From NCBI GenBank assembly GCA_028696185.1, contig JAQVHL010000022.1:1-38913 (forward strand): 38,913 bases of DNA. Reading direction: 5' to 3'. How positions within the stretch are numbered: position 1 is the first letter of the stretch; each line of letters begins with the position of its first letter. The notes under the pieces were generated by a model, which saw only the letters and a list, made by a program, of their open reading frames with translations, did not search any database and was not told the DNA's origin. The position numbers and the translations under genes were made by a program. The stretch comes from Halothiobacillaceae bacterium. Its GTDB lineage: Bacteria; Pseudomonadota; Gammaproteobacteria; Halothiobacillales; Halothiobacillaceae. Positions 37,084 through 38,913 of the stretch are shown one piece after another.

Positions 37084-38060
37084 GCATCCCCGACGCCGAG
37101 CCCTCCCCGACAACACCGCGCATCCGCCTGGGCATCAGCGCCTGCCTGCTGGGCGAGCCGGTGCGCTTCGACGGCGGCCACAAGCGCGACAACTACATCA
37201 TCGGCACCCTGGGCCGCTTCTTCGATTTCGAAGCCTTCTGCCCCGAAGTCGCCATCGGCCTGGGCATACCGCGCCCCACCCTCCGCATCGAACGCCGCGA
37301 CAGCCTGCCGCGCGTGGTCGGAGTGCGCCACCCGGACCAGGACTACACCGACGCCCTCGCCGGCCATGCGCACGCGCGGCAGGAGCGACTCGCCGGACTG
37401 TCCGGCTTCATCTTCAAGAAAGACTCGCCCAGCTGCGGCATGGAGCGGGTGAAAATCTACGACGCCAATGGCGCGCCGGACAAACGCGGCGTCGGCGCCT
37501 TTGCCGCCGAAGTCATGCGCCTTTTCCCGCACCTGCCCTGCGAGGAAGAAGGGCGGCTGGGCGATCCGACCCTGCGCGAGAACTTCATCGAGCGCGTGCT
37601 CATCCATCATCGCTGGACCGCTCTGCTCGCCCACGGCCTTACCCCCGGCGCGCTGGTCGAATTCCACACCCGGCACAAGCTGCAGTTCCTCGCCCACAAC
37701 CAGGCGGGCTACCGACGTCTGGGCCGGTTCGTCGCCCAGGCCGGCAGCCACGCCGACCTGCAGGCCCTGGCCGGGGAATACCAGCGAGAAATGACCGAGG
37801 TGCTGCGCCGCCGCGCCACGCCGCAAACCCACGCCAACGTACTCGAACATCTGGCCGGCTATCTCAAGAACGCCCTCGACGAAGGCGACCGCCGCGAACT
37901 GCAGCAGTGCATCGCCGACTACCGTACAGGCCAGCTCCCGCTGATCGTCCCCATCACCCTGCTGGCCCATCATTTTCGCCGCCACCCCCATCCATGGATC
38001 GCGCAACAGTACTACCTGCGCCCGCATCCACCGGAACTGGCATTGCGCAACAGGATATGA
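37080..38060 (+). CDS. DUF523 (TudS-like) + DUF1722 (YbgA-type) two-domain protein
   Basis: The 326-residue protein has an N-terminal DUF523 domain (about residues 14-160) and a C-terminal DUF1722 domain (about 170-315). DUF523 marks are ISACLLGEPVRFDGGHKRD, FCPEVAIGLGIPR and KKDSPSCGMERVKIY. Cys22, Cys54 and Cys119 are in the places of the three iron-sulfur ligands of TudS, a thiouracil desulfidase with a [4Fe-4S] cluster. DUF1722 marks are LIHHRWTALLAHG and the FHTRHKLQFLAHN segment; its function is unknown. The gene is coupled to the photolyase by ATGA. E. coli ybgA, a DUF1722 gene, is also next to phrB, so the link is conserved. A role with damaged or thio-modified bases is an inference. 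Confidence 0.9.
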   Translation: MSIPDAEPSPTTPRIRLGISACLLGEPVRFDGGHKRDNYIIGTLGRFFDFEAFCPEVAIGLGIPRPTLRIERRDSLPRVVGVRHPDQDYTDALAGHAHARQERLAGLSGFIFKKDSPSCGMERVKIYDANGAPDKRGVGAFAAEVMRLFPHLPCEEEGRLGDPTLRENFIERVLIHHRWTALLAHGLTPGALVEFHTRHKLQFLAHNQAGYRRLGRFVAQAGSHADLQALAGEYQREMTEVLRRRATPQTHANVLEHLAGYLKNALDEGDRRELQQCIADYRTGQLPLIVPITLLAHHFRRHPHPWIAQQYYLRPHPPELALRNRI

Positions 38061-38092
38061 GCGGGCTGAGGGTGTTAAAAAAGGTTTTGCGG

Positions 38093-38376
38093 ACAATTCA
38101 GTGCAGGACGAAGGATTCCCATCTCCCCCTTGGAGGCGCCATAGCCAGGGTTCGAAGACCGGGTGAAAGGGCCATGGAGGGCCCTTTCAGTCCCGCCGCG
38201 ACAGGAAGTCGCGTTGGGACGGCCCGGTCGGAGCGGCCCAGGCCATGGCTTGCCCGAAGGGCGCCTCCGTGGGGGTGCCTTTTCTTTGGTACCTTTCTTT
38301 GGGCAAGCAAAGAAAGGTACTCGCCCGCGTGCGATGCGGGCCGTTCGAAGTGCGCCGCTTGAGGCGGGCGAAACAG
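38093..38376 (+). repeat. Structured intergenic repeat, copy A (direct)
   Basis: This copy of about 284 bp begins ACAATTCAGTGC and ends near GGCGGGCGAAACAG. It holds three hairpins: GAAAGGGCC/GGCCCTTTC (38165-38188); a TCCC...GGGA stem with inner GCGAC/GTCGC (38190-38220); and GTACCTTTCTTTG/CAAAGAAAGGTAC with a 6-base loop (38289-38320). It shares most of its sequence with copies B and C. Small open frames across it are not credible genes. It begins 32 bp after the DUF523 gene stop. The third stem resembles a CTTTCTTTGGGCAAGCAAAG motif seen in many proteobacterial intergenic regions, by memory. Confidence 0.85.
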
Positions 38377-38453
38377 CGCGCAGGCCTGTCCGCTTGCTAA
38401 AGACCAAGTCGTTCAGCCGCCGGTTAAAGCCACTTTCAATAACCCTTGGAGCC
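38377..38453. other. Unique spacer between repeat copies A and B
   Basis: About 77 bp with no gene, hairpin or promoter I can support. It separates the two converging ends of copies A and B, both of which finish with a GGCGGGCGAAA motif. Confidence 0.4.
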
Positions 38454-38735
38454 CTTTTTCGCCCGCCATGAGGCTTGGCCTTTCAAACAGGCGTCAACGC
38501 ATGCGGGCGAGTCACTTTTCTTGCTTGTGCAAGAAAAGTAACCCAAAGAACACACCCCCACGGGACCGCCCTTCGGGCAAGCCATGGCCTGACCTGCTCC
38601 AGCCGGGCCGTCCCGACACAACATCCTGTTGTGGCGGGACTAAATGGGCCATCCCTGGCCCATTTACCCGGCTTCCACAGGTCAGGCCACGGCGGTCCCA
38701 AGGGGGCCTTTCCCTACGACCCACGCTCGTCCAAC
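38454..38735 (-). repeat. Structured intergenic repeat, copy B (inverted)
   Basis: Read on the minus strand this copy follows the same order as A and C: GGACGA, a CCCCCTTGG block, then three hairpins. Hairpin 1 is TAAATGGGCCA/TGGCCCATTTA (38641-38666), different in sequence from A and C but perfectly paired. Hairpin 2 (38610-38640) is identical to that of copy C. Hairpin 3 is ACTTTTCTTGC/GCAAGAAAAGT with a TTGT loop (38514-38539). It ends in the same GGCGGGCGAAA sequence as A. Its 5' end abuts that of copy C, head to head. Confidence 0.85.
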
Positions 38736-38913
38736 AATTCAGCGCCGGACGAAGGATTCCCAGATCCCCCTTGGAGGCGCCATGGACGGGGTTGTGGAGA
38801 CCGGGTGAAAGGGCCATGGAGGGCCCTTTCAGTCCCGCCACAACAGGATGTTGTGTCGGGACGGCCCGGTCGGAGCGGCCCCGGCCATGGCTTGCCCGAA
38901 GGGCGCCTCCGTG
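38734..38913 (+). repeat. Structured intergenic repeat, copy C (direct, cut by window end)
   Basis: The copy begins ACAATTCAGCGC and closely follows copy A at an offset of about 641 bp until the window ends. Hairpin 1 (38807-38830) is the same as in A. Hairpin 2 (38832-38862) has ACAAC/GTTGT where A has GCGAC/GTCGC, so two base pairs changed with pairing kept. Hairpin 3 would lie beyond the window. Confidence 0.85.

Follow-up and report, generated by a model that had tools for sequence, protein, structure and literature searches.

TwoAYGGAY RNAs as inverted arms of transposon-like foldback units in a Halothiobacillaceae genome

What is the structured repeat that occurs three times at the end of a contig from a Halothiobacillaceae bacterium, and how did it spread? 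The window, i.e. the whole stretch of DNA that was analysed, is exactly the 38,913 bases of its source contig (G000:C42) and terminates within a repeat. A sequence-only reading had described three copies, A (+), B (-) and C (+), with hairpins whose stems change on both sides from copy to copy, and had suggested either a family of structured noncoding RNAs or a mobile hairpin element, for example one served by a REP-type transposase. The copies and their orientations were found as described, and the stems quoted for hairpins 1 to 3 of A and B proved correct on re-reading. The element that contains them begins slightly to the left of the start given in that reading, with a terminal repeat from 38070.

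Copies A, B and C match the TwoAYGGAY RNA family

The three copies share one fold: a long closing stem topped by two hairpins with GGA loops, and a third hairpin downstream, which in copy C falls past the contig end. The closing stem, absent from the sequence-only reading, has its 5' side from 38125 and its 3' side to 38275, and encloses hairpins 1 and 2. The folds of copies A and B are far better than chance (z scores in Table 1).

Table 1. Features of the repeat region, in coordinates of the window
Feature	Position	Strand	Details
TGA, presumed left target duplication (TNA)	38067..38069	.	read directly and compared with other copies that have CTNA before the element
Degenerate left terminal inverted repeat	38070..38094	+	GGGTGTTAAAAAAGGTTTTGCGGAC; resembles the family terminus GGGTGTTTACAAAANGAAGGTTTNNNGGAC
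Copy A, whole repeat	38117-38325	+	
Copy A, TwoAYGGAY RNA, arm type 1	38117..38283	+	Rfam RF01731, 43.8 bits; fold z -6.3
Copy A, hairpin 1	38165..38188	+	loop ATGGAG with C-G closing pair (CANGGANG)
Copy A, hairpin 2	38190..38220	+	pentaloop AGGAA, one base less than CANGGANG
Copy A, hairpin 3, type 1	38288..38321	+	GGTACCTTTCTTTG/CAAAGAAAGGTAC
Foldback unit centre between arms A and B	38350..38482	.	recurrent 133 bp segment separating type 1 and type 2 arms
Copy B, whole repeat	38507-38714	-	
Copy B, hairpin 3, type 2	38510..38543	-	CTTTTCTTGC/GCAAGAAAAG
Copy B, TwoAYGGAY RNA, arm type 2, inverted partner of A	38561..38714	-	RF01731, 54.5 bits; z -12.9
Copy B, hairpin 2	38610-38640	-	
Copy B, hairpin 1	38642-38665	-	
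Array junction joining successive foldback units	38715..38745	.	CTCGTCCAACAATTCAG; both terminal repeats mostly lost, by comparison with intact unit ends
Copy C, whole repeat	38759-38913	+	truncated because the contig stops at 38913
Copy C, TwoAYGGAY RNA, arm type 1, first arm of next unit	38759..38911	+	RF01731, 44.9 bits

All three copies match Rfam RF01731 (TwoAYGGAY) above its gathering threshold of 43 bits, which supports the suggestion of a structured RNA family. The family dates from 2010, when it was described as a likely RNA without a known function (Weinberg 2010, PMC2864571); from the motifs in its loops, a role in binding CsrA was subsequently proposed (PMC4333381). Rfam gives its type as Cis-reg and places it in clan CL00106, a label that we confirmed for E. 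coli CsrB. The copies resemble the published family in their two GGA-loop hairpins atop a closing stem, and Gammaproteobacteria are among its listed hosts. They differ from it in that the RNAs here come in pairs, as the arms of a foldback element that is present in high copy and has terminal repeats, and in the hairpin 2 loop: the loops of hairpin 1 (ATGGAG and AGGGAT) fit the AYGGAY pattern, while those of hairpin 2 (AGGAA and AGGAT) are one base short. Matches of the window to Rfam MIR820, an unrelated hairpin model, and to other microRNA models were set aside as artefacts of the long palindrome.

The two-sided change of stems between copies holds across the genome. An alignment of 69 arms, made on sequence only, has standard pairs in 99.5% of its 4,925 pair cells, and 26 of the 74 pairs show changes on both sides; these copies are related, mostly representing two arm types and a few hairpin-2 alleles, so that copy counts are not event counts and there are tens rather than hundreds of independent events. 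The covariation score was 0.275, compared with 0.132 after shuffling, and none of 500 shuffles reached the observed score, the level of two-sided change or the percentage paired. When partners were shifted by 1-3 columns, pairing fell to 36-51% of cells. Helix 7, corresponding to hairpin 3, is 100% paired and has 5 two-sided changes.

Foldback units and their termini

The repeat has more than 150 blastn matches in its own genome, many of them at contig ends, and at least 73 RF01731 copies. Many contigs of this assembly terminate within the repeat, and therefore the copy number is a lower bound and the order within arrays may be misassembled. Two types of arm can be told apart by their closing stem and hairpin 3, and alleles of hairpin 2 are mixed across both. 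Adjacent arms pair type 1 with type 2 in inverted orientation in 57 of 58 cases (37 tail-to-tail and 20 head-to-head neighbours, and 1 tandem). The foldback consists of an arm, a centre of ~133 bp and an inverted arm. A, B and C can be read as probable arms of a MITE-like foldback element, the unit of which, typically 600-750 bp long, would run from a GAGGGTGTTTACAAAA terminal repeat through a TwoAYGGAY arm with hairpin 3, the centre and the inverted arm of the other type to a second terminal repeat.

Isolated units end in inverted repeats GGGTGTTTACAAAANGAAGGTTTGTTGGAC, with GAGGGTGTTTACAAAA as the repeat at the unit boundary. Allowing 3 mismatches, the terminus GGGTGTTTACAAAANGAAGGTTTNNNGGAC is found ~100 times in the genome, and its reversed control 0 times. 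Terminal inverted repeats could be read at both unit ends in 22 pairs. Target-site duplications, a check suggested by the sequence-only reading, were recovered in part: 3-bp TNA duplications flank 10 of the 22 pairs, against 4.9 expected from flank shuffling (P 0.002, with junction offsets picked by eye after seeing the data), but the flanks of the other 12 do not match. A unit of the relative G001 (G001:C52) lies between two genes and is missing from the orthologous gap, which is short, in four congeners, G004, G007, G010 and G013; the flanks are too diverged to establish an exact target duplication at this empty site. Inverted repeats at the ends, duplicated target sites and a site that is empty at the orthologous place in relatives give the units a transposon-like character, which supports the mobile-element half of the earlier suggestion as well.

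In the window, the element starts after CTGA. The upstream gene, which encodes 2-thiouracil desulfurase and DUF1722 domains, has its stop codon at 38058-38060, nine bases before the element and 6 bases before the presumed target duplication. The terminal repeat of this copy is too diverged for the genome-wide terminus pattern, with 3 mismatches allowed, to hit. The right end is off the contig, and only the left side of the duplication is visible here.

Units of 97 to 543 bp have identical ends and a middle that is partly or wholly absent, corresponding to nested internal deletions. Five very short ones (97-213 bp; L071, L073, L075, L076 and L087) keep the same termini around a symmetrically deleted foldback centre. 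At L079 (8076-8264), a truncated unit end adjoins what by eye appears to be a degraded transposase remnant. On the basis of a crude ORF call, convergent genes flank 10 of the 20 units with classifiable neighbours, compared with 32 convergent pairs among 134 gene pairs in background stretches.

While the RNA family is already known, neither its foldback transposon setting nor a link of CsrA-type loops to a mobile element was found in the literature searched. The publications found on TwoAYGGAY describe no mobility as a foldback element, searches for CsrA together with MITEs or transposable elements returned no relevant publication, and the hairpin 3 string gave no match.

GGA loops and the distribution of the arms

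The sequence-only reading took compensatory change to imply selection on structure. The covariation is real, but this conclusion is too strong for palindromic DNA, because such DNA can be corrected by template switching. A better argument for RNA function is the occurrence of CANGGANG loops on the sense strand only. At 19 RF01731 loci in other gammaproteobacterial families, the motif was found 30 times on the sense strand and 0 times on the antisense strand, against 1.0 expected in shuffles; the covariance model contains the motif, and these loci were thus partly selected for it. Their stems vary freely while the loops stay CANGGANG, and such variation of the closing stem next to an unchanging loop is not imposed by the motif content of the model. 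When 11 arms from different genera are aligned (mean column identity 44%), nine columns are invariant, and six of these spell CA.GGA.G.

The motif CANGGANG is the binding consensus of Rsm proteins (CsrA/RsmA; PMC6849547). In the own genome, hairpin 1 carries the consensus, and hairpin 2, with a five-base loop (CAGGANG), carries it minus one base; a CsrA gene is present on contig G000:C100. We dropped co-occurrence with CsrA as evidence, since the protein is nearly universal (35 of 40 relatives) and its presence cannot test the link. No CsrA gene was found in the draft genomes of two RNA-carrying relatives, G023 and G014. Variant arms at four loci (L058 5700-5790, L059, L072 and L077) have an extra hairpin within hairpin 2, the loop of which, CATGGATG, forms a third GGA site. 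The arms resemble CsrB/CsrC/RsmXYZ of clan CL00106 in having paired hairpins with GGA loops matching CANGGANG. However, the Csr/Rsm RNAs come from sRNA genes of their own and have many sites, whereas TwoAYGGAY is here a dispersed repeat with two (sometimes three) sites per arm. Judging from the loop motifs, the arms most likely bind CsrA, one dimer probably spanning the two GGA-loop hairpins.

Among 369 genomes sampled from the class, with 7 candidates per genome scored, RF01731 was present in 24 genomes and in 22 of 272 genera, often in many copies. Congeners range from 4 to 42 matches; several genomes hold one or two copies, and in several the RNA, with its long closing stem, stands alone without a partner arm. 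Hairpin 3 accompanies inverted TwoAYGGAY pairs in at least five separate groups (the own family, G110, G072, G323 and Pseudoalteromonas), and in Pseudoalteromonas piscicida five matches follow one another in alternating orientation. In genus g4, G110, G072 and G323, where the second arm of G323 is weak and under the Rfam listing threshold, the inverted arms with hairpin 3 face outward and have other outer ends. IS5-type ends are therefore not general to TwoAYGGAY pairs: pairing of the arms is general, whereas the IS5-like ends may be a local acquisition.

Two further loci are recorded here as observations. At L184 (G072:C107, 1409-2997), two inverted arms with hairpin 3 and 54-bp perfect inverted repeats flank a 317-aa protein with SH3 and staphylococcal-nuclease-homologue domains, possibly a cargo-carrying composite. 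Hairpin 3, the primary sequence of which is kept across distant hosts, occurs alone in Ilyobacter polytropus (Fusobacteriota; L172, NC_014633.1, 2001-2045) with 95.6% identity over 45 bases, at one of six places in this sequence with no TwoAYGGAY match alongside. The hairpin adjoins a photolyase and DUF523 gene pair, as does the repeat of the window, possibly by coincidence.

Candidate mover and alternative explanations

We consider the repeat to be a foldback transposon that is itself non-autonomous and depends on an IS5/IS1031-like transposase for its movement, with arms that act as CsrA-binding RNA once transcribed; we put the probability of this reading at about 0.55. The candidate for the mover is an IS5-family gene (DUF4096 and DDE_Tnp_1) at the start of contig G000:C17, detected as a single copy and flanked by 23-bp inverted repeats AGAGGGTGTATCCAAAATAAATA. 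Its outer nine bases, AGAGGGTGT, and a further AAA are identical to those of the unit termini, and the two diverge further in. Elements of the IS1031 group of the IS5 family prefer TNA targets and create 3-bp repeats (PMC12016507). The DUF4096 gene was found only in the own genome and in none of the relatives, including genus g2, which has similar terminal repeats; the link of the units to an IS5-family transposase is therefore plausible but unproven. Another IS candidate (L171, DDE_Tnp_1) was rejected because no matching termini were found, and no similar DNA was found among 50,697 phage records. The units resemble IS5/IS1031-group MITEs in being non-autonomous, with terminal inverted repeats, TNA duplications and an IS with matching outer termini in the same genome. 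They differ in their unusual length, in the full foldback of two structured RNAs inside and in forming alternating tandem arrays.

The REP-type transposase suggested at the outset found no support. A REP/BIME-type system, in which the single-stranded DNA hairpins are the substrate of a RAYT (Y1 HUH) transposase, would fit the high copy number, the hairpins, the extragenic position and the alternating orientation of the palindromic units, which are BIME-like (PMC2817692); hairpin 3 is also as constant in sequence as a DNA recognition hairpin might be. Yet Y1_Tnp (PF01797) has 0 matches in the own genome and does not correlate with copy number across this genome and 40 relatives, and G007, G009 and G015 have many copies without it, which makes a RAYT unlikely. 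As the units are also much larger than REP elements, and their long inverted termini with 3-bp duplications are expected of DDE rather than Y1 enzymes, we regard such a system as very improbable. An RNA conserved for cis-regulation or as a 3'-UTR structure, spread mainly by ordinary duplication and recombination without transposition, would agree with the Rfam type, with the genomes holding one or two copies and with the frequent position of units just downstream of genes. It sits poorly with terminal repeats bearing TNA duplications, with the orthologous empty site and with a patchy presence in the class at many copies where present and variable numbers among congeners, and appears quite unlikely.

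A further alternative, which we judge unlikely, is that the element functions as a DNA foldback only, its covariation generated by template switching and gene conversion between copies and its transcripts incidental. The inverted-repeat nature of the whole unit, the shuffling of hairpin-2 alleles across arm types and the symmetric internal deletions of short units are marks of palindrome processing at the DNA level, and the MIR820 model also matches the palindrome. Against this, the loops are fixed at CANGGANG on one strand across many families despite differing stems, and RNAs with long closing stems also occur singly, without a partner arm.

Under the favoured reading of a foldback transposon with CsrA-binding arms, an IS5-family DDE transposase (IS1031/IS427-like, with TNA targets) would act in trans on the terminal repeats, and recombination between units would produce the alternating arrays and nested deletions. 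Since the two arms are oriented towards one another, transcription from either flanking gene would reach a sense TwoAYGGAY arm first, which is the basis for a proposed action at the 3' end. The transcribed arm would fold as a three-way junction displaying the two GGA-loop hairpins, and a CsrA/RsmA dimer bound to it may affect the 3' end of the host mRNA, titrate CsrA, or both.

Since 2010, TwoAYGGAY has remained an orphan among RNA families, and its binding to CsrA has been no more than a proposal. Transposon-like foldback carriage explains its patchy, high-copy distribution and inverted pairing. More broadly, and tentatively, TwoAYGGAY could be more than a cis-regulatory RNA: a class of transposable foldback elements may have it as their arm and so disperse CsrA-binding hairpins downstream of genes throughout Gammaproteobacteria, with a mobile element rewiring or titrating the global post-transcriptional regulator of its host; the inverted pairs with hairpin 3 in at least five groups fit this possibility, which we hold to be somewhat doubtful. 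With the foldback element, it can be tested in a concrete case whether the binding sites of a global RNA-binding regulator can be spread by transposons.
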